DNA of 55,624 nt from Kribbia dieselivorans NBRC 106261 (GTDB lineage: Bacteria; Actinomycetota; Actinomycetes; Actinomycetales; Dermatophilaceae): assembly GCF_001552435.1 (NCBI RefSeq), contig NZ_BCRE01000051.1:1-55624 (forward strand). The letters run 5' to 3'. How positions within the stretch are numbered: position 1 is the first letter of the stretch; each line of letters begins with the position of its first letter. The notes below the pieces were generated by a model. That model had not been told where the DNA came from. It saw nothing but the letters and a program-made list of their open reading frames with translations, and made no database searches. Position numbers and translations under genes: made by a program. Shown here one piece after another: positions 2,320 to 51,229 of this stretch.

Positions 2320-3303
2320 ATGACCGGGGACAACACCGACACCTCGCTCGAGCCGACCGACCTCGACCTCCAGGAGGCACTGGCCGACCTGCTGGCCGTG
2401 CTCGATCTGACCCGAGTGGGTGAGACCCGCAGCAAGGTGGCGATGCACGAGGGCGGTGACGCCCTCGCCGACATCGGCGCCGAGGTCTTCATCGCCCGCA
2501 GCCTGCGCACGAGCCACCACCGGGTGTTCGGCGGACAGGTGCTGGCGCAGTCGATCATGGCCGCCGGCCAGACCGTTCGCAGCATCCACCCCGACCGGCC
2601 GATCCACTCGCTGCACGCCTACTTCCTGCGCACCGGTGACGATTCGCAGCCGATTCGCTTCGCGGTCGAGCACCTGCGTGACGGCCACTCGTTCTCCGCG
2701 CGGCGGGTCTACGCCCTGCAGGACGGCGAGACGATTCTGACGATGACCGCCTCGTTCCAGGACCCGGCTCCGGGTATCGAGCACCAGCGGCCGATGCCGG
2801 TGGTCCCCCGGCCCGAGGAGCTCGATTCGCTGGGCGAGTACTACACGGGCATGGACCTGCCGGGGACGAAGCAGATCATTCCCCGGCCGATCGAGCACCG
2901 TCACGTCCAGGGCAACCTCTACAACGCCCAGGCCACGCACCGCTCCTACAAGCAGAGCGTGTGGTTGCGCGCCGTCGGTGCCCTGCCCGACGACCCACTG
3001 CTGCATGCCGCGGTGCTCGCGTTCGCCTCCGACTACACGATCCTCGAGACGATCATCCGCGAGCACCAGCTCGTGTGGTCCGAACCACGTCTGCGCGCGG
3101 CCAGCCTTGACCACTCGATGTGGTTCCATCGACCCGTGAAGTTCGACGACTGGGTGCTTTACGACCAGCACTCGCCGTCCGCACAGGGTGGTCGCGGTCT
3201 GGGCATCGGACACATCTACTCCCCCGACGGGCTCCTGCTCGCCTCCGTGGCGCAGGAGGGGATGCTCCGGATCAAGGAGTCACTTCGCGCCGAGGCCGAA
3301 TGA
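2320..3303 (+). CDS. tesB: Acyl-CoA thioesterase II (TesB family)
   Basis: A 327-residue double-hotdog thioesterase that would hydrolyse acyl-CoA to free fatty acid and CoA in the cytoplasm. The N-terminal half has the typical stretch HHRVFGGQVLAQSIMAAGQT and SLHAYFLRTGD. The C-terminal half carries FASDYTILET, LDHSMWFHRP and VAQEGMLR, which hold the Asp, Ser/Thr and Gln expected for the TesB catalytic triad. The ATG at 2320 was chosen because conserved sequence starts soon after it; the frame stays open far upstream inside the helicase gene but codes for nothing there. Its stop overlaps the ATG of the next gene (ATGA at 3300), so the two are probably translationally coupled. The length is slightly above the ~290 residues of E. 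coli TesB because of a short N-terminal extension. Confidence 0.9.
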   Translation: MTGDNTDTSLEPTDLDLQEALADLLAVLDLTRVGETRSKVAMHEGGDALADIGAEVFIARSLRTSHHRVFGGQVLAQSIMAAGQTVRSIHPDRPIHSLHAYFLRTGDDSQPIRFAVEHLRDGHSFSARRVYALQDGETILTMTASFQDPAPGIEHQRPMPVVPRPEELDSLGEYYTGMDLPGTKQIIPRPIEHRHVQGNLYNAQATHRSYKQSVWLRAVGALPDDPLLHAAVLAFASDYTILETIIREHQLVWSEPRLRAASLDHSMWFHRPVKFDDWVLYDQHSPSAQGGRGLGIGHIYSPDGLLLASVAQEGMLRIKESLRAEAE

Positions 3304-5246
3304 CCTCGACCGGGCGCCGCGACACGATCCTGCTCGCGGTCCTGGCCATCACCGGCGCCATCGTCTCGCTCCAGCAGACGCTGGTCATCCCCCTGCTTCT
3401 CGAGATCCAGGTCTCCCTGGGCACGAGCACCGAGGACACCTCTTGGTTGGTGACCGCCACGCTGCTCAGCGGGGCGGTCTCGACGCCGATCGTCTCGCGC
3501 GCGGCGGACATGTACGGCAAACGGCGCATGATTCTGCTGTCGCTGGCCGTCCTCACCGTCGGATCGGTGATCGGGGCCCTGGGCACAACGCTGCCGGTCA
3601 TCGTTCTCGGGCGCGTGCTGCAGGGATTCGCCGCGGCCCTCATCCCGGTCGGGATCAGCGTGTTGCGCGACGAGCTGCCCCGCGAGCGGGTCACCGGCGC
3701 CGTGGCACTCATGAGTTCGTCGATGGGTGTCGGAGCCGCGATCGGCCCGGTCGTCGCCGGCCTGATCGCCGGCAACTTCAGCTGGCACTGGGTGTTCTGG
3801 TTCTCGGCCATCTTCGGGCTGATCATGTTCGTGGCCGTCTTCATCGTCGTGCCGGAGTCGACGGTGCGAACCCCCGGCCGATTCGACATCGTCGGAGCCC
3901 TGCTGCTCAGCCTCGCCCTCGTCGCCCTGCTGCTCGTCATCACCAAGGGCGGACACTGGGGGTGGACGCATGAACGCACGCTGCTGCTGGCCCTGCTCGC
4001 GGTGGTCCTGATCGCCGCGTGGGTGCCCTGGGAACTGCGCGCCACCCACCCGATGGTCGACCTGCGCACCGCCGCACGCCGCCCCATCCTGCTGACCAAC
4101 ATCGCCGCGCTGCTCGCCGGGTTTGCCCTGCTGGGCAACAACCTCTCGACCAGCCAGCTGCTGCAGTTGCCGTCGGGCACCGGGTACGGCTTCGGCCTCA
4201 CCGCCCTGATCGCCGGCCTGTGGATGCTCCCCGGCGGCCTGGCGATGATCGCCGCCGCGCCGCTGGCCGCCCGTTGGATCCGCCGCTTCGGCGGCCGAGT
4301 CACGCTGATGATCGGTCTCCTCACCCTCGCCGTCGGGTACGTCTCGCGCGTCTTCCTCAGTCACGAGGCGTGGATGGTCGCCGTCGGGGCGATGGTCGTG
4401 GCCGGCGGCGCGGGCATCGCCTACGCCGCCATGCCGAACCTCATCATGACCGCGACGCCGATCACCGAGACCGCCGCCGCGAACGGCCTCAACGTCCTGT
4501 TCCGCTCGGTCGGCACGTCCGTGGCGAGCGCGGTCGTCGCGTCCCTGCTGTCGACGACCACGGTGGTCGTCGACGGCGAGAGCCTGCCGGCGTTCGCGGC
4601 CTTCCAGCACGTGTTCTGGATCGCGGCCGGAGGAGCCCTGCTCGGTGCCGTCGTCACCGCGCTCATCCCGCGCCTCGAACCGGTTCCCGCGGCCGGCCCG
4701 GAGGTCGCCAAGTCGGCCGAGCTCGTGGTCACCGGCACGGTGCACAACGACGCCGGCCGGCCCCTGCGCACCGCCGTCGTGACGGTGTTCACCGAAGCCG
4801 GCTCGCAGGTCGACTGGTCACGGGTCGAGAGCGACGGCACGTGGTCGCTGGTCGTCCCCTCCCCCGGACGCTACCTGCGGGTCGTCGCCGCCGACGGCTA
4901 CGACCCGGCCGGGGCGTTGCTCGACCTGGCGCCGGGCAGTCACGACGACATCGACCTGGGTCACCGCCTCGACCTGTCCGGGCGTGTGGTCAGCGGTGGT
5001 CGGCCCGTCGGCGGGGCGCTGGTCGCGGTGACCCAATTGACCGGTCAGTCCGCGGGCACGACCCGCACGGACGTGACCGGTCACTGGTCCTTGCCGCTCC
5101 CCCGCCACGGTCGCCACGTCGTCACGGTGGTCGACCCGGTCACGGGGGCGACGTCGACGACGACGCTGACGACCATCGGCGTGTCCCGCGAGGTCGACAC
5201 CGACTTGGCGGCGCCGCCCCCGCCGTCCCCCGCCGGTTCGAGGTGA
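3300..5246 (+). CDS. MFS drug-exporter family transporter with two C-terminal carboxypeptidase-regulatory-like repeats
   Basis: A 648-residue protein. Residues ~1-465 form a 14-helix DHA2-type major facilitator: the N-terminal helix ILLAVLAITGAIVSLQQTL, the loop motif ADMYGKRRMILLSL, and motif C-like GVGAAIGPVVAGLI. Residues ~470-640 are soluble and contain two beta-sandwich repeats (GTVHNDAGRPLRTAVVTVF and SGRVVSGGRPVGGALVAVT) of the carboxypeptidase regulatory-like/CnaB-like type. With 14 helices the tail should be cytoplasmic, an unusual place for such folds. The start overlaps the tesB stop. The last codons (Gly-Ser-Arg-stop) lie inside a large palindrome. The substrate cannot be read from the sequence. 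Confidence 0.88.
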   Translation: MTSTGRRDTILLAVLAITGAIVSLQQTLVIPLLLEIQVSLGTSTEDTSWLVTATLLSGAVSTPIVSRAADMYGKRRMILLSLAVLTVGSVIGALGTTLPVIVLGRVLQGFAAALIPVGISVLRDELPRERVTGAVALMSSSMGVGAAIGPVVAGLIAGNFSWHWVFWFSAIFGLIMFVAVFIVVPESTVRTPGRFDIVGALLLSLALVALLLVITKGGHWGWTHERTLLLALLAVVLIAAWVPWELRATHPMVDLRTAARRPILLTNIAALLAGFALLGNNLSTSQLLQLPSGTGYGFGLTALIAGLWMLPGGLAMIAAAPLAARWIRRFGGRVTLMIGLLTLAVGYVSRVFLSHEAWMVAVGAMVVAGGAGIAYAAMPNLIMTATPITETAAANGLNVLFRSVGTSVASAVVASLLSTTTVVVDGESLPAFAAFQHVFWIAAGGALLGAVVTALIPRLEPVPAAGPEVAKSAELVVTGTVHNDAGRPLRTAVVTVFTEAGSQVDWSRVESDGTWSLVVPSPGRYLRVVAADGYDPAGALLDLAPGSHDDIDLGHRLDLSGRVVSGGRPVGGALVAVTQLTGQSAGTTRTDVTGHWSLPLPRHGRHVVTVVDPVTGATSTTTLTTIGVSREVDTDLAAPPPPSPAGSR

Positions 5247-5283
5247 TAGCGACCGCTCCAGCGGTCGCTATCACCTCGAACCG
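5234..5283. terminator. 50-bp perfect palindrome between convergent genes
   Basis: Two 24-base arms are perfectly complementary around a 2-base loop (CC). The outer arm begins CGGTTCGAGGTGATAGCGAC. It contains the stop codons of both the MFS gene and treZ, so both proteins end in the same Gly-Ser-Arg. It probably acts as a bidirectional, U-tract-less terminator. A sibling with the same outer 11 bases and the same dimensions lies at 49382-49431. Confidence 0.75.
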
Positions 5284-7094
5284 TGGAGGACGATCACGCC
5301 AGGACCGGAGAACCGTACGGTCGCCTCATCGATCGTTCCACCCTCGGGCTGCACGTCCCCGTCGGCATACGTACCGTCCATCGCGAACAGCACCTCCGCA
5401 CCCGCCGGCGCCGGGACCGACACCGCGGTCTCACCGAACGCCGCGATGACGTGCACGTCACCGCGCCGCATCGACACCCATCGCCCACTCTCGTCGAAGT
5501 CCGTGGCGATCTCATCGATCCGGCCCGAAGCCAGATCCGGCACGGTCCGGCGCAGGGCGATCAGGGTCCGGTAGGCCTCCCAGACGCGCGCGTGATCGGC
5601 GCTCCCGCGTTCCTCCCAGCGCAGCACGCTGGCATCGCGAGTGGATTCGGCCTGCGGGTCGGGGATGTCGGCCTCGCGCCATCCGTGGGTGGCGAACTCA
5701 CGGCGGCGGCCCTGCCGCACCGACTCGGCCAGCGCCACATCGTCGAACGACGTGAAGTATGCGAACGGGGTCGAGGCAGCCCACTCCTCGCCCATGAACA
5801 CCATGGCCGTGTACGGCGAGAGCAGGTAGAGCGCCGCGGCGGCGACCTGCCGCGTCGGACCGGCCGTCACGCCGATCCGATCACCGGTGGCCCGGTTGCC
5901 GACCTGGTCGTGGGTCTGGAGGTAGGCGACGAATCGGTCGGCCCGGCCGGCCGGCTCCACCGGGTGACCCCAGACCTTGCCGCGGAACGTCGACATCCGC
6001 CCGTTGTGGAGGAACACCTCCTGCAGCACCGTCGCCAGCACCGCCACGGGCCCGCCGTCGGGGAACGCCGCAGTGCCCCCGCCGAAGTCGGCGTAGTACC
6101 CCTGGTTCTCCCCCGTCGCGGTGACGTGGAGGGCGTGGTGGATGTCGTCGTCCCACTGCGCGTCCATCCCGCGACCACCGCGATCGGTCGGGGTGACCAT
6201 GATCTCGTCGTTGAGGTCGGATTCGGCGATGAGGTGCACCGGTCGGCCCAGGTCGGCGGCCAACGCGTGAACGGTGTCGGCCAACTCGGCGAGCAGGTGC
6301 CGAGGCGAGTCGTCCTGAAGGGCGTGGACCGCGTCGAGCCGGAAGGCGTCGACGTGGAAGTCGCGCACCCACTGCACGGCGTGGTCGAGCACCCACTGCC
6401 GCACCTCGGCGTTGTCGTGACCGTCGAGGTTGAGGCCCTTGCCCCAGGGAGTCTGGTGGTCGTCGGTGAAGTACGGACCGAAGGCCCACAGGTGGTTGCC
6501 GGAGGGACCGAGGTGGTTGTACACGAGGTCCAGACAGACCCCGAGTCCTCGCGCGTGGGCCGCGTCGACGAAGCGCTGCAGCGCCTCCGGCCCGCCGTAC
6601 CCGTCGTGCACCGCGTACGTCGCCACGCCGTCGTAACCCCACCCCCACCGGCCCGGGAACGGCGCCAGCGGCATGAGTTCGACGACGTCGATGCCGAGGT
6701 CGACGAGATGGTCCAGTCGATCGATCGCCGCGTCGAGGGTGCCGGCCCGGGTGAACGTCCCGACGTGCAGTTCGTAGAGCACTCCCCCCAGGGCGCCGAC
6801 GCCGTCGCGGGGCCCGCGCCAGGCGGCGTCGGTCCAGCCGAACCGGGACGGGTCGAACCACCGGCTGGGCCCGTCCACGCCGTGCGGCAACGCCAGACCG
6901 CGCGGGTCGGGGTGGGCCTGCCCGTCGATGACGAAGGCATAGTCGAACGGGATCTGGGCGCTCGGATCTCCGTCCCACCGCCACCACCCCCCGCCGACCG
7001 GGGTGAGGGGTTCGCGTCGCTGCGCCGGGTACCCGATCTCGATCTCGACGGCGGGCGCGGTCGGCGCCCAGACCCGGACGTCTCCAGACGCCAT
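5271..7094 (-). CDS. treZ: Malto-oligosyltrehalose trehalohydrolase
   Basis: A 607-residue GH13 enzyme that releases trehalose from maltooligosyl-trehalose, the last step of the TreX-TreY-TreZ route. Order: N-terminal E-set domain (DVRVWAPTAPAVEIEI), then the (beta/alpha)8 barrel with LDLVYNHLGPSGNHLW, the nucleophile motif VDAFRLDAVHAL and the acid motif LIAESDLND, then a C-terminal beta domain. Its ATG lies one base after the treY stop (CATGTCA on the plus strand), so the genes are one operon. The protein's final Gly-Ser-Arg is encoded inside the palindrome that ends the operon. Length is normal for the family. Confidence 0.95.
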   Translation of the reverse strand: MASGDVRVWAPTAPAVEIEIGYPAQRREPLTPVGGGWWRWDGDPSAQIPFDYAFVIDGQAHPDPRGLALPHGVDGPSRWFDPSRFGWTDAAWRGPRDGVGALGGVLYELHVGTFTRAGTLDAAIDRLDHLVDLGIDVVELMPLAPFPGRWGWGYDGVATYAVHDGYGGPEALQRFVDAAHARGLGVCLDLVYNHLGPSGNHLWAFGPYFTDDHQTPWGKGLNLDGHDNAEVRQWVLDHAVQWVRDFHVDAFRLDAVHALQDDSPRHLLAELADTVHALAADLGRPVHLIAESDLNDEIMVTPTDRGGRGMDAQWDDDIHHALHVTATGENQGYYADFGGGTAAFPDGGPVAVLATVLQEVFLHNGRMSTFRGKVWGHPVEPAGRADRFVAYLQTHDQVGNRATGDRIGVTAGPTRQVAAAALYLLSPYTAMVFMGEEWAASTPFAYFTSFDDVALAESVRQGRRREFATHGWREADIPDPQAESTRDASVLRWEERGSADHARVWEAYRTLIALRRTVPDLASGRIDEIATDFDESGRWVSMRRGDVHVIAAFGETAVSVPAPAGAEVLFAMDGTYADGDVQPEGGTIDEATVRFSGPGVIVLHGSR

Positions 7095-7095
7095 G

Positions 7096-9539
7096 TCAGG
7101 CCTCCATCCGCACGAGCAGCGCGACCGGCCCGGCCTCGAGCAGGTGGCCCACCGGTTGGGTGCCGCCGGCGGTTTCGCGCCCGGTCAGGGTGTCGCGCCA
7201 CGCCCCCGGCGGCAGGGTGATCGTCGCGTCGCCCCACCCACCGGCAGCCGCGACCGACTCGGTCAGGCGAGCGGCGAGCGCGACGACGTGCACGCCGGAG
7301 TGGTCCCCGCGCCCCACGGCGAACACGTGCTCGGTGCTCGCCTCGAGCGGGACCCACGTCGCGGCCTCGCCGATGAACCACTCGGGGTGGTCTCGGCGGA
7401 CCCGCAGCGCCTGGGCGGTCACGGCCAACTTCTCGTCGTCGAGGTCTCGCGGGGACGCGCCGGAGTCGAGTTCAGCCAGCCGAGCGGCGATCCGCGAGTG
7501 ATCGACCGGTGCGCGGTTGTCGGGGTCCACGAGCACGAGCGAGGTGACTTGAGTGCCTTGGTAGATGTCCGGCACGCCCGGGTGGATGAGCTGAACGAGC
7601 TTCTGCCCGAGGATGTTCGCCCGCGTCGCGGCGGCCGTGCGAGCCAGCCACGCCGCGACGTGATCGGTGACCGCCGCGTCGCCGAGAACCGTGTCGACGA
7701 ACGCGTGCACCTGCTCCTCGTAATCGGCGTCGACCTCGGTCCACGTCGTCTGTTCCTTCGCCTCGCGCATCGACTTCTCGACGTAGGTGTGCAGGCGATC
7801 GGCGGCCACGGTGCCGTCATCGGCGGCGATCCCGACGAGGGTCTGCCAGATGAGGTACTCGACGCGCCCGTCGACCCGGGCCCCACGGCGCTCCGCCACG
7901 CTGGCGCGCGCGGACTCGAGCCATCGGCCCCACTCATCGGGCAGTTCGCTCAGCACCGCCAGCCGGGCGCGCACGTCCTCGCTGCGCTTGGTGTCATGCG
8001 TCGAGAGGGTCGTCATCGTCGTCGGCCAGTCGGTCAGGCGCCGGGCGGCGAAGGCGTGCAGGTCGGTCGGCGACACCCCGAAGCGCGCGAGGTCACCGCC
8101 GACCTCGTTGAGCGCGGCCAGCCGCAGATGCCGGTAGAAGGCGGTGTCCTCGACGCCCTTGGCCATGACCGGTCCGCAGGTCTGCTGGAATCGGGTGACG
8201 AAATCTGCGGTCGCGCGCTCGTTCTGACCGCCGTCGCCGACCGCGAGCGCGGCGATCGCGTCCAGGGTGTCGTGGACCTGCGGCGGCAGCACGCCCCGCG
8301 ATCCGGCGACGGCCTCGTCGAGGGCTTCCCGGGCACCGACGGTCATCTCACGCCCGGGGTGGGCGTAGGCGCGATACCGCGGCATCGCCACGAGCAGGGC
8401 CTCGAGAACATCGGTGACGGCCTGGCCCTCGAGGTCGGGGCGGGCCCGCGCCACGAGGCGTTCGAGACGCGCCACTTCGGCGGCCTGCCCGGTCCGCACG
8501 ATGAGGGCCTTCGACTCGGCCACGACCTCATTGACGGAGCGCGGATCGGCCGAGATCTCGTGCCACAGCGCGGTGAGCGATGCCTCACCGGCCGGATCGA
8601 CGAACAGCCCGCCGATACGCAGGAGTGCGTCGTAACCGGTCGTGCCGGCACAGCGCCACGCCTCCTCCACCTCCTCCTCGCCCTCAAGGATCTTCTCGAC
8701 GACGACCCACGCGTCGCCGGTGGCCTCGGCGAGGCGGTCGAGGTAGCCCTGCGGGTCGGCCAGGCCGTCGGGGTGGTCGATCCGCAGTCCATCGACCGTC
8801 CCGGTGTGGATCAAGTCGCGGAAGAGGGCGTGTGTGGCCCGGAAGACGGACGGATCCTCGACCCGCACGGCCACGAGCGAGGAGACGTCGAAGAATCGCC
8901 GGTAGTTCAGCCGGCCGGCGCCGGCGCGCCAGAAGGCCAGCCGATAGTGCTGGGCCTCGAGAAGTTCGGGCAGCGGGAGGCCGGCCGTCCCGCGGCGCAC
9001 CGGGAACTCGTGGTCGAAGTACCGCACGACGGTTTCGTTGCCGTGTTCGCCGCCGTCGGGGGCGAGGACCAGGTCACCGGCGGCCAACACGGACTCGAGT
9101 CGGTCGCCGAGCACCGGAACCAGGATGTCGCCCTGCTCGGAGACCCAGTCGACGTCGAACCACGACGCGTACGGGGAATCCGGTCCCTCACGCAACAGGG
9201 ACCACCACTGGGTGTTGAGCCACGCCGGGGTGGGCGTGGTCATGTGGTTGGGCACCACGTCGACGATCAGCCCCAGACCGTGGGCCTTCGCCTCGCGGGC
9301 GAGTTCCTCGAGACCGTCACGCCCACCGATCTCCTGGTTGACCTCGCCGTGTTCGACGACGTCATAGCCGTGCGTCGAACCGGGCGAGGCCTGGAGGATC
9401 GGGCTCAGGTATAGGTGGCTGACGCCGAGCGCGGCCAGGTGGGGCAGGACCTGCTGCGCGTCACGAAAGGTGAACTCCGGCTGCAACTGCACCCGGTACG
9501 TGCTCAGCGGGGTCGTGCGGCCCTGGCCGGCTCGGTGCG

Positions 9540-34839: not shown

Positions 34840-35724
34840 ATGGCCCCCTTCACCACGGAATCCGCTGCCGATCGAGCACGTCGGGTGTTGTTCACCGGAC
34901 TGATCGACGATGCGTCGGCCTACCCACCGCGGGCGTTGCCGCTCCGCGATTCCGTTGCCGCACACCGGGAGTTGACGTCGGGTCGGTGGGCGACGCTCAT
35001 CGGGCCGCTGTACGTCCCGGCGTTGCAGACCGCGGACCTCAAGGATCTGCTCCGCCCCGACGAGGAACTCGACATCTCGGTCGTCGTCCGCCCCGACGCC
35101 GACCTCGAGTTGGTGCACAACGCGATCGCGAGCACGCTGGACACCCCCGGTGTGCACGTGGAGCGGATCGAAGCCTGGTGGAACCCGACCTGGAGCACGA
35201 TGGAGCTGCGCGGGCTCACCCTCGTGCTTCAGGTCCCCCGAACCCCGCATGCCGCCCTCGCCGACATTGCCGCCGGGCGCGTGGCCCTGCAACGCGAGGT
35301 CGTCGCGCGATTCCACACCGGCGTCACCCGGATCTGGCACTGGCCGAACGAGGCCGAACTGGCCCACTTCATCGCCGAGGCCGTCGCGGCCGGAGTCCCG
35401 TTCATCCTGACCGGCGGGTTGAAGCCCGCCGTGCGGTCCACGCGGGCCGATGCCGCAGACGGCCAGTCCGAGCAGCATGGCCTGCTCAATGTCCTCCTCG
35501 CGGTCGACACGGCGGTGCGCGGTGGCGCGCCCGGCGCGGTCGAGGCGGTGCTGGCGGACCGCGATGGTGAGGACCTGGCTGCCCGTGTCGCGGGAATGGG
35601 TGAGCAGCGTGCCTGGGCGACGCGGGCCTTCCTCCGGTCGATCGGGAGCACCGATCCGGCGAGTCTGATCGACAACCTGCTCGCGTACGGGCTCGCGTCA
35701 GAGCCGCTTGACCCCGTTGAGTGA
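34840..35724 (+). CDS. Conserved protein of unknown function
   Basis: A 294-residue soluble protein with no domain I can name. It starts with LFTGLIDDASAYPPRALPL; its second half has FHTGVTRIWHWPNEAELAH, then GVPFILTGGLKPAVRST and HGLLNVLLAVDTAV. I recall a family of uncharacterised bacterial proteins with the pattern phenylalanine-rich TGG...FP...ELA, G-x-P-F-x-x-T-x-G-L-x-x-x-V-R and GFLN, and this looks like a divergent member, probably with a TIM-barrel-like alternation. It follows the LLM gene by 28 bases and may be co-transcribed. The stop codon lies within a long hairpin. Confidence 0.7.
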   Translation: MAPFTTESAADRARRVLFTGLIDDASAYPPRALPLRDSVAAHRELTSGRWATLIGPLYVPALQTADLKDLLRPDEELDISVVVRPDADLELVHNAIASTLDTPGVHVERIEAWWNPTWSTMELRGLTLVLQVPRTPHAALADIAAGRVALQREVVARFHTGVTRIWHWPNEAELAHFIAEAVAAGVPFILTGGLKPAVRSTRADAADGQSEQHGLLNVLLAVDTAVRGGAPGAVEAVLADRDGEDLAARVAGMGEQRAWATRAFLRSIGSTDPASLIDNLLAYGLASEPLDPVE

Positions 35725-35773
35725 TGGTTTCGGGTCGCCTCCCGGCGTGGGAGGCGACCCGAAACCATCACTC
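35719..35773. terminator. Long perfect hairpin between convergent genes
   Basis: Twenty-five-base perfect arms (GAGTGATGGTTTCGGGTCGC onwards) surround a five-base loop (GGCGT). The left arm contains the stop codon of the upstream plus-strand gene, and the RDD gene on the other strand ends 12 bases beyond. It is a probable bidirectional terminator, similar in style to those at 5234 and 49382. Confidence 0.75.
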
Positions 35774-47825: not shown

Positions 47826-49310
47826 TCAGAGCCACTTGCGCGGGTCGACGGGCACACCGTTCTCGCGCGTCTCGAAGTGCAGGTGACAGCCCGTGGACAT
47901 GCCGGTGGTGCCCTCGCGGGCGATGAGCTCACCGCGCTGGACCCGCCCGCTCGTGCGGACGAACGAGGACAGGTGGTTGTACGTCGTCGCCAGCCCCACG
48001 CCCCGCTTGACGCCATGGTCGATGACGAGTTGGTTGCCGTAACCGCCGGCCACCCCGGCCGAGACGATCGTGCCGCTGGCCGCCGCGTAGACCGGCGCAC
48101 CACAACCGGCGGAGTAGTCGCGGCCGCTGTGCAGGCGCCAGAAGTTCAGGATCGGGTGCAGCCGCGGCCCGAACTCGCTCGTCACGACGCCGTTGGACGG
48201 GGCGGAGATGACGCCGTTGCCCGAGGGCGCCGATTGGGTGGCTCCCCCGCCGCCACTGGAGCCCGAGTTGCTGCTGGCACCGGCCTTCGCCGCCGCCAAC
48301 GCCGCCGCCTGCTCGGCGCGGCGTGCTGCCTTCTCCGACGCGATCCGCTCGGCCCGCAGCCGGGCTCGAAGTGCGCGCGCCTCAAGGATGCCCTGCAACC
48401 GGTTCGACCATGCCTCGGTCTTGGCCAGGGACGCCTCCTCAGCCTTCTTCTGCCGGTCGAACCGAGCCGCCTGGTTGCGCTGCGAGTTCTCGATCCCCCG
48501 CAGCACCGCCTGCGCCGACTCCGCGTCGCGACGGGCCACACCGGCCTGCGCCAACGCGTCCTGCGCCGCCACCTGAGCGTCCTCGGCAGCGCGCTCGGCG
48601 GTGTCGGCGTTGGTCTTGGCGACCTCGCTCTCGCCGCGGAGGGCCTTGAGGTTGTCCTGCTTGGCAACGAGGTTCGCGCGAGTGGTGGCCAGGTCACCGA
48701 TGGCGCTGTTCTGCACCTCCATGACGGTGTCGGCCATGGCCAGACGCGTGGCGAGGTCATCGGGCGACTCGGCGCTCATGGCCACGGACAGCTGGCCGAG
48801 CCCCTGCTCCTGGTACATCTGCGCGGCGAAGCCGGCCACCCGGTCGCGGGTGTCGCTGATCTTGGTGTTCGTCGAGGCGATGTCGTCACGGGCCCGCTGT
48901 TCGTTGGCCTGGGCGACCTTGAGGGCGGCTGCCGCCTCGGCGGCCTTCTCGGCGGCGGCGGCTTCCCGGGCCATGGCCTCGGTGTGCCGCTTGGCCGCGG
49001 CCGTCTCGGCGGAGCGGGCGCTGGTGACCTTCGCGCGGGCCGCGGGCAACTTCGCGCGGGTGCGGTTCAACGCCGCCTGGCTGCGCTGGAGCGCGGCGGA
49101 GGTCTCGTGGATGTCACCGCGCAGCGACTCGGCGCGCTGGTCGGCGCGTTTCTTCTGCTGGCTCGGGTCGTCCGCCGCCACCGCCGGAGCCGACGAGAGC
49201 GTGTCGGTGGCGACCAGCGTGCCACCGGTGAGCACAGCAACGGCCGCCAGCGCGGCAACGGCGGCGCGGGCGGTCGAGTGAGTCTTCTGGGGCTCGTGTG
49301 ACGACGGCAT
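47826..49310 (-). CDS. M23 (LytM-type) peptidoglycan peptidase with long coiled coil
   Basis: A 494-residue secreted protein. Signal peptide (AAVAALAAVAVLTGGTLVAT), then ~300 residues of Ala/Arg/Glu-rich coiled coil, a Gly/Ser linker, and a C-terminal M23 domain: FGPRLHP, HSGRDYS (HxxxD zinc ligands), YNHLSS and HLHFE. All active-site residues are present, so it should be an active endopeptidase rather than an EnvC-type activator. It lies directly downstream of ftsE-ftsX, and coiled-coil hydrolases in this position are typically activated by FtsEX. The ATG at 49310 gives the signal peptide its normal N-terminus. Confidence 0.9.
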   Translation of the reverse strand: MPSSHEPQKTHSTARAAVAALAAVAVLTGGTLVATDTLSSAPAVAADDPSQQKKRADQRAESLRGDIHETSAALQRSQAALNRTRAKLPAARAKVTSARSAETAAAKRHTEAMAREAAAAEKAAEAAAALKVAQANEQRARDDIASTNTKISDTRDRVAGFAAQMYQEQGLGQLSVAMSAESPDDLATRLAMADTVMEVQNSAIGDLATTRANLVAKQDNLKALRGESEVAKTNADTAERAAEDAQVAAQDALAQAGVARRDAESAQAVLRGIENSQRNQAARFDRQKKAEEASLAKTEAWSNRLQGILEARALRARLRAERIASEKAARRAEQAAALAAAKAGASSNSGSSGGGGATQSAPSGNGVISAPSNGVVTSEFGPRLHPILNFWRLHSGRDYSAGCGAPVYAAASGTIVSAGVAGGYGNQLVIDHGVKRGVGLATTYNHLSSFVRTSGRVQRGELIAREGTTGMSTGCHLHFETRENGVPVDPRKWL

Positions 49311-49381
49311 CGCGATCGAGGATAGCCCGATGACCCCCGATCGGGCCAAGGACGCGCCCAACCCTTGTGATGCACCCTCCC

Positions 49382-49431
49382 CGGTTCGAGGTATTACGCG
49401 GCGGGTTCCCGCCGCGTAATACCTCGAACCG
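49382..49431. terminator. 50-bp perfect palindrome downstream of ftsX
   Basis: Two 24-base complementary arms (starting CGGTTCGAGGTATTACGCGG) around a TT loop. Dimensions and outer 11 bases are the same as in the palindrome at 5234-5283. It separates ftsX from the M23 gene on the minus strand, so it would end or attenuate the prfB-ftsEX transcript. Confidence 0.72.
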
Positions 49432-49460
49432 CGAGGGGGCGGACCGTGAGGGGGCGTCGG

Positions 49461-50368
49461 TCAGACGCGCAGGTACCGCCACAGGGTCGTTGCCCCGGTG
49501 ACAACCGCCAGCACGACGACTCCGCCGAGCAGCCACGGTGCGATGACCCACACGTCGGCGGCCCCGATCATCGCCTGGTCGAGCAGGATCGTGTTCAGGT
49601 ACCGGTTGAAGATGAAGTGCACCGTGGCCCACAGCAGCCCGATGGCGCCGAGGGTGCCGATGACGCCGGCGATGATGACCTCGAGAAGGAACGGAGTACG
49701 AATCGTCCAGTTCGACGCTCCGACCAATTTCATGATGGAGATCTCGCGGCGTCGGGTGAACGCGGCCTGCCGGATCGTCGTGCCCATGAGCAGCACGGCA
49801 CACAGCGCCATCAGCGCCGCCAGCAGGACCGAGAACCCGGTGATGTAGTTGATCACCTTGAAGAAGCGGTTGAGGACCTTTTCCTGGTCCTGCACGCTGG
49901 CCACGCCCGGGGCGCCCTGGAATGACGAGACGACGACGTCGTACCGGCTGGGGTCGGACAACTGGACGCGGTAGGACTGCGGGATGTCACCGACGCGGAC
50001 GTTCTCCGAGATCGGGCTGTTCTTGAACTGCTCCCGGAACCGGTCGAACGCCTCCTGCTCGGACTCGTAGTAGACGTTCTCGACCAGCGGGCGCAACTCG
50101 TCGAGTTGAGACTCGATCGTGCTCTTCTGCGCGTCGGTGACCGCACCGCCGTCACAGTTCGGTTGGGCCGAGGTGTCGGTGCACAGGTAGATCGACACCT
50201 GGACCCGGTCGTACCAGTACCCCTTCATCTGGTCGGCCTGGCGCTGCGCCAACAGCCCGAGACCGAGCAGGTAGACCGAGACCAGCGTGACCAGGACGAC
50301 GGCCAGGGCCGTGGACAGGTTGCGGCGAATGCCGTTCCACGCATCCGCCATGATCGTGCCCAGCCCCA

Positions 50369-50369
<1 letters not shown>
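49461..50369 (-). CDS. ftsX: Cell division protein FtsX
   Basis: A 302-residue membrane protein that with FtsE transmits ATP hydrolysis to cell-wall hydrolases. An N-terminal helix (LSTALAVVLVTLVSVYLLGL) is followed by an extracytoplasmic domain of ~150 residues (YWYDRVQVSIYLCTDTSAQP onwards), then three helices near the C-terminus including VLLAALMALCAVLLMGTTI. FTRRREISIMKLVGASNWTI is the conserved cytoplasmic coupling loop. The ATG at 50369 shares one base with the ftsE stop (TGATG). Confidence 0.94.

Positions 50370-51229
<860 letters not shown>

Follow-up and report, generated by a model that had tools for sequence, protein, structure and literature searches.

Short palindromes that recur in tens to hundreds of copies per genome include the GTAG-tagged REPs and REPINs with their RAYT transposases (PMC3733652; PMC3116915). 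As described there, they occupy convergent and tandem gaps, have stems of 5-13 bp, occasionally fall within ORFs, and are uneven among related species (PMC3733652). The CGTC-tagged REPs (dRS3, RPE-4, and RPE-6), with stems of 8-9 bp, have no dedicated transposase in that account, are patchy, and occur also in coding regions, and untagged REP-like families of M. tuberculosis, D. radiodurans, and others are named as awaiting study (PMC3733652). As for transcript ends, structured 3' ends with a GC stem-loop and no U-tract (HS-U-lack, I-shaped or Rho-type) have been described as a class in Streptomyces clavuligerus, a high-GC actinobacterium (PMC8269248), and actinobacterial Rho is reported to be unusually large (PMC4167861). 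In the terminators of Bacillus cereus, G-U was described as the most frequent intermediate (PMC5381666). Template-switch correction of quasipalindromes brings imperfect inverted repeats closer to perfection in one event (PMC7202029).

The palindrome considered here belongs to F1, a family of elements of about 50 bp with dozens of copies in its genome. F1 is a true repeat family, of the REP-like kind without a REP transposase. Among the open-licence papers listed for palindromic repeats in Actinobacteria no description of F1 was found, and its outer 11-mer together with the word "palindromic" gave no match in the open-licence literature.

The palindrome behind ftsX and its family

The window, that is, the whole stretch of 55,624 nt that was analyzed, contains two copies of F1 and one of a second family, F2. 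The features are as follows.

49382-49431, no strand assigned: F1 palindrome (24+2+24), 29 bp 3' of the ftsX stop and 71 bp ahead of the next gene
49374-49439, no strand assigned: the same element with its 8-nt flanks, of the kind compared over 132 flanks (5' C-rich, 3' G-rich)
49461-50432, minus strand: ftsX (PF18075, PF02687), whose 3' end bears F1
47826-49310, minus strand: M23 peptidase gene (PF01551, scanned as 47826-49361) downstream of F1, its start taken from a custom gene caller
5234-5283, no strand assigned: second F1 palindrome, in which both convergent genes stop at TGA (arm positions 11-13)
3300-5246, plus strand: MFS transporter gene by domain scan, stop codon within the F1 copy at 5234-5283
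5271-7094, minus strand: alpha-amylase-family gene by domain scan, stop codon within the opposite arm of that copy
35719-35773, no strand assigned: F2 palindrome of the same build with GAGTGATGG outer arms, between convergent genes

The palindrome behind ftsX is perfect, as originally predicted, with 24 of 24 pairs around a TT loop, and the predicted sharing of 11 outer bases with the copy at 5234-5283, which has the same 24+2+24 build and likewise matches at 24 of 24 pairs, is an identity over exactly the first 11 bases. Because the window holds five long palindromes (arms of at least 15, score of at least 14, and loop of at most 8) and each of 20 dinucleotide shuffles held none, they are not due to chance. 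Minus-strand RNA of 49362-49451 is predicted to fold at -65.9 kcal/mol (z -8.95). No terminator-like site was called at 49382-49431, and a known Rfam family was rejected, as the Rfam matches in the window were tmRNA and tRNAs only. GGTTCGA may resemble the T-arm of tRNA.

The 3.29-Mb genome contains 58 forward matches to the pattern CGGTTCGAGGT N24-30 ACCTCGAACCG and 0 to a control pattern. The original prediction of a family whose members share an outer sequence but differ in their cores is thereby borne out, and the concern that the outer sequence might have no further genomic copies is removed. By itself, the outer 11-mer occurs 179 times (93 + 86) in the genome, 116 of which are the 58 pairs, and it is nearly confined to palindromes. 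Among 21 matches to it at 15 further loci, four lie in two exact pairs, nine in palindromes with one altered arm, and four are cut by a contig end; the other four are free-standing, three of them within called genes. In a DUS-type terminator made of uptake sequences the motif is abundant singly as well; with four free-standing 11-mers among these 21 matches, this class was rejected.

Of 140 pattern candidates, 66 were kept on stem and length, and 57 of these were aligned; six coding copies at one locus (L085), L108 (53 bp), one tandem duplicate, and, inadvertently, L102:8807 were omitted. The alignment has 16 invariant columns, all in the outer arms except one inner pair. Flanks and gene context were studied in a 68-copy set obtained with another filter (two mismatches per arm, stem of at least 0.7, L085 omitted). 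The eight bases on each side are C-rich toward the element (C 0.42-0.83), symmetrically so whichever way transcription runs; their composition is kept among copies, whereas the two sides are nearly independent and covary only slightly. No conserved U-tract was found, the 3' flank being G-rich over 132 flanks, and a canonical intrinsic terminator was rejected for this GC hairpin without a U-tract.

At least eight contigs of the assembly (C5, C13, C21, C65, C73, C76, C80, and C161) end in an F1 copy or at most 60 bp from one, so that the palindromes probably break assembly. At another locus (L077, 5001-5485), two identical F1 copies stand 385 bp apart, and the inner flank of the one repeats that of the other in inverted orientation, an arrangement that an inversion or inverted duplication between copies would leave. 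The L085 locus of the same genome (G000, C49:3000-10709) carries seven imperfect F1 copies at 4991-7467, all in a single orientation and within one long Pro/Ser/Thr/Ala-rich ORF that comes after phage-type tail sheath and tube genes; the copy spacings are multiples of three and yield a repeated peptide like VRGIEGPNSAAPHLESG. In integrons, attC sites have separate gene cassettes between them. An attC identity, which the L085 array had suggested, was rejected, since this sole array-like set seen sits in one ORF with spacings divisible by three.

The longer outer arm of F2 occurs 21 times in exact form in the genome; besides the window, the family is found at L086, L098, L103, L107, and others, and it possesses two alternative matched inner arms. 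Of 17 F2 copies read, seven were tandem, six convergent, three divergent, and one at an edge. As F2 shares the build, the build is not peculiar to F1. A possible third family with CGAGGG[G/A]AC[A/G]ATTGTGG outer arms is represented by two copies (L077 4679-4745 and L087 4583-4639). In a related genome, G022, three segments of L174 (8753-8829, 2419-2460, and 12728-12777) match many other places on both strands, and further dispersed palindrome families besides F1 therefore seem to be present there.

Gene context and matching of the arms

With genes called by a custom codon-score caller, the 68 F1 copies divide into 38 in convergent gaps, 23 in tandem gaps, four in divergent gaps, and three at a contig edge. 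Copies in convergent gaps lie a median of 24 nt from a stop codon, whereas those in tandem gaps follow the upstream stop by a median of 30 nt and precede the downstream start by a median of 99 nt. The original prediction had looked to gene ends for an enrichment, and a strong one is present in convergent gaps: for the 65 placed copies, 217 F1-free gaps of at least 50 bp, drawn from the same loci (which were picked for holding F1), gave expectations by gap number of 8.4 convergent, 35.0 tandem, and 21.6 divergent (p ~2e-27), and the copies sit a median 24-30 nt past the stop. Hairpins scoring at least 12 also occur in gaps free of F1, namely in 17 of 46 convergent, 20 of 265 tandem, and two of 75 divergent ones.

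At five gene ends, bases 11-13 of the element are the stop codon itself. Two of these are the genes that converge on 5234-5283, and the other three have weak coding scores. At one junction between related genomes (K1), F1 supplies the stop and the F1-free sister has its own (frame read by eye). A covariance-model search for F1 alone found it in none of 29 ftsX loci of relatives. Several of these loci (L118, L120, L123, L130, and others) have a TGTTACCAATGG-like motif between ftsX and the next gene, with the reading frame misplaced in about half of the 29; TTACCAATG is absent from 49201-49460 of the window.

The arms of F1 remain matched in spite of their differing cores, as had been claimed. 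With eight weakly paired flank columns per side included, 85.1% of the alignment cells are paired, compared with 74.7 +/- 0.7 in shuffles, and sliding the partner by 1-3 columns lowers pairing to 38-43%. The covariation score is 0.296 against 0.124 in shuffles, and 228 cells are changed on both sides against 100 +/- 9.6, although these double changes are not independent events because the copies are paralogues. Judged by eye, some copies, such as L096 and L088:17440, resemble mosaics whose left and right arms belong to different core classes. The outer arms, too, vary among genomes in matched fashion, GATTCG occurring with CGAATC and GGTTCGATGT with ACATCGAACC. No orthologous pair of F1 copies was found among the genomes compared.

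Selection on RNA predicts G-U intermediates, whereas template-switch correction predicts matching in one step that is able to enter the local flanks. On the sense strand of tandem copies, we counted 15 GT, 12 AC, and 28 other mismatches, which is no G-U excess (15 v 12, p 0.70). Matched flank runs of at least six bases numbered 15 against 4.3 expected (Poisson p 5e-5, as the sum of five slightly overlapping sets with copies assumed independent); this excess is seen over several genomes, and none of the runs was among the 12 copies of one genome (G119). Together, the missing G-U excess and the long flank runs lead us to lean toward re-templating or copying over slow selection on RNA, a preference that is suggestive only. 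In the source genome, flank pairing exceeded permutations at two of eight positions (5 and 17 of 300 as high). The flanks were rejected as part of the stem, their matches being near what composition predicts.

Occurrence among relatives

The reach of the family beyond the source genome was confirmed. In GTDB contigs, 61 stretches carry the exact outer pair, from Phycicoccus, Terrabacter, Knoellia, Intrasporangium, Humibacillus, Terracoccus, and related bins, and also from Desertihabitans (Propionibacteriaceae), Pseudactinotalea (Cellulomonadaceae by NCBI), and Occultella. Covariance-model matches were obtained in at least 37 of 99 family genomes, the source genome included. Within a single genus the matches ranged from 0 through at least 9 to at least 44, which are rough numbers, as at most 52 candidates were scored per genome with strict filters and both strands were counted.

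Copies were not found to be common to sister genomes. For seven F1 sites of G119, the corresponding places in two congeneric genomes, G093 and G032, were examined by alignment (about 75-86% identity, with neighboring genes differing at some places) and model search, and F1 was present at none of these 14 orthologous places. In another genus, at eight junctions with F1 in G022 or G116, three of them aligned on both sides (K1, K2, and K7) and the others on one, the other genome lacked F1, which makes 0 of 22 sister places sharing it. Because the sister genomes are only about 73-91% identical, gain and loss look alike in these comparisons and the insertion points are unclean.

Hairpin scores were obtained for 14 sister places, of which five come from the G119 comparison, eight from the junctions of G022 and G116, and one from G089. 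An unrelated palindrome above all shuffles was present at five (site 4 in G032, site 5 in G093 and in G032, and K2 and K8 in G022), and no notable hairpin at the other nine. Hairpins at these places are therefore replaceable and dispensable, and the junctions do not require one. At a further junction without F1 (J1), the hairpins of G022, G089, and G116 are unrelated to one another, that of G116 being barely above shuffles (9.8 against 8.8).

Origin, role, and relation to known systems

For a family with established covariation, location, patchy presence, and absence from sister sites, we consider it reasonably probable that F1 is a REP-like repeat, with no tag and no RAYT, that spreads and acts as a 3'-end hairpin in both directions, its arms being matched by whole-palindrome copying and template-switch correction. 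F1 would spread inside genomes and from one genome to another, in Intrasporangiaceae and some other Actinomycetes, and settle just 3' of stop codons, mainly in convergent gaps, where its very stable hairpin may form a U-less 3'-end element on both strands, ending or protecting the transcripts of both neighbors. With a 24-bp hairpin past the stop, transcripts would have a defined 3' end that resists nucleases, and the hairpin may halt polymerase by itself or together with Rho. From the sequences, a 3'-end role is likely. That the copies move, as opposed to having been lost from all other places, is our inference, as are an action of the hairpin in transcription and the upkeep of matching arms by copying of whole palindromes together with template-switch correction inside one palindrome. 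The family raises the questions of whether mobile repeats supply transcript ends and of what keeps long palindromes perfect.

A position after genes is, against this reading, also where neutral insertions would survive. F1 could thus be a selfish or neutral repeat, a miniature element mobilized in trans by a transposase, its bias owed to purging elsewhere. We regard this as a tentative possibility that agrees with the patchy presence, the absence at sister sites, the copies within an ORF, tandem copies only 63-66 bp apart (L088, L096, L057, and L064), and the nine of 14 sister places that manage without a hairpin. The marks of transposition point the other way. No direct repeat of 3-9 bases was found at any of 67 flank pairs (offsets 0-2), so that F1 lacks the target-site duplication of a MITE. 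The REP transposase domain Y1 (PF01797), in a search whose controls were positive in five of 14 known genomes, was detected in none of the 37 family genomes with F1 matches; the three of 99 that have it (G076, G106, and G112) are without an F1 match. Nor did any of the 10 proteins scanned, of 26 called between neighboring copies, contain a transposase domain above cut-off. The unrelated palindromes at some of the same sister junctions suggest, moreover, a useful hairpin.

More doubtful is a reading in which 3'-end palindromes here need no transposase to replicate. Stalled replication or repair would copy them into other 3' ends through strand and template switching, which would also re-match the arms and sometimes extend them into local flanks. 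If true, transcript ends would be a self-copying, self-correcting sequence class with several competing families per genome. What was observed, namely interchangeable palindromes that vary by sister species at the same junctions and sometimes give the stop codon, all without a known REP transposase, bears on the origin of hairpins between convergent genes.

It is very unlikely that F1 copies are bidirectional terminators passed down vertically, with stems that drift by compensatory mutation and an outer sequence that binds a termination or RNA-end factor: location, distances to genes, and strong covariation would suit such terminators, but sisters have no copy in common, the ftsX loci of relatives are devoid of F1, and the G-U excess expected from the B. 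cereus terminators as described (PMC5381666) is missing. Equally improbable is a DNA-level site, for instance for a protein, in the form of an inverted pair, for although the C-rich flanks are symmetric and the outer arms nearly invariant, the 11-mer is not dispersed singly and a binding site has no need of complementary cores.

In the wide sense F1 is a REP-like repeat, being a dispersed short palindrome in many copies that are mostly extragenic. With the GTAG REPs and REPINs it shares short palindromes in tens to hundreds of copies, convergent and tandem gaps, occasional copies within ORFs, and unevenness among related species, but its stem of 24 bp with a 2-nt loop exceeds the 5-13 bp given for GTAG REPs (PMC3733652). 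As the 57 aligned copies and their 8-nt flanks have no conserved GTAG at either end and no Y1 was detected in F1-bearing genomes, a GTAG REP with RAYT was rejected. F1 resembles the CGTC-tagged REPs in being palindromic, patchy, present also in coding regions, and without a dedicated transposase; by Table 1 of PMC3733652 it was rejected as one of them, for it has no CGTC tag and its stem is about three times longer than their 8-9 bp. Its predicted transcript ends would be like the U-less ends of S. clavuligerus, GC stem-loops without a U-tract in a high-GC actinobacterium, except that the accessible part of that paper does not describe those as a dispersed repeat family (PMC8269248). F1 departs from the B. 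cereus terminators in its mismatches, G-U intermediates prevailing in the latter (PMC5381666). The correction proposed for F1 resembles that of quasipalindromes, in which one event brings an imperfect inverted repeat closer to perfection; what is a single-site mutation in the account of PMC7202029 would, in F1, be the upkeep of a repeat family.
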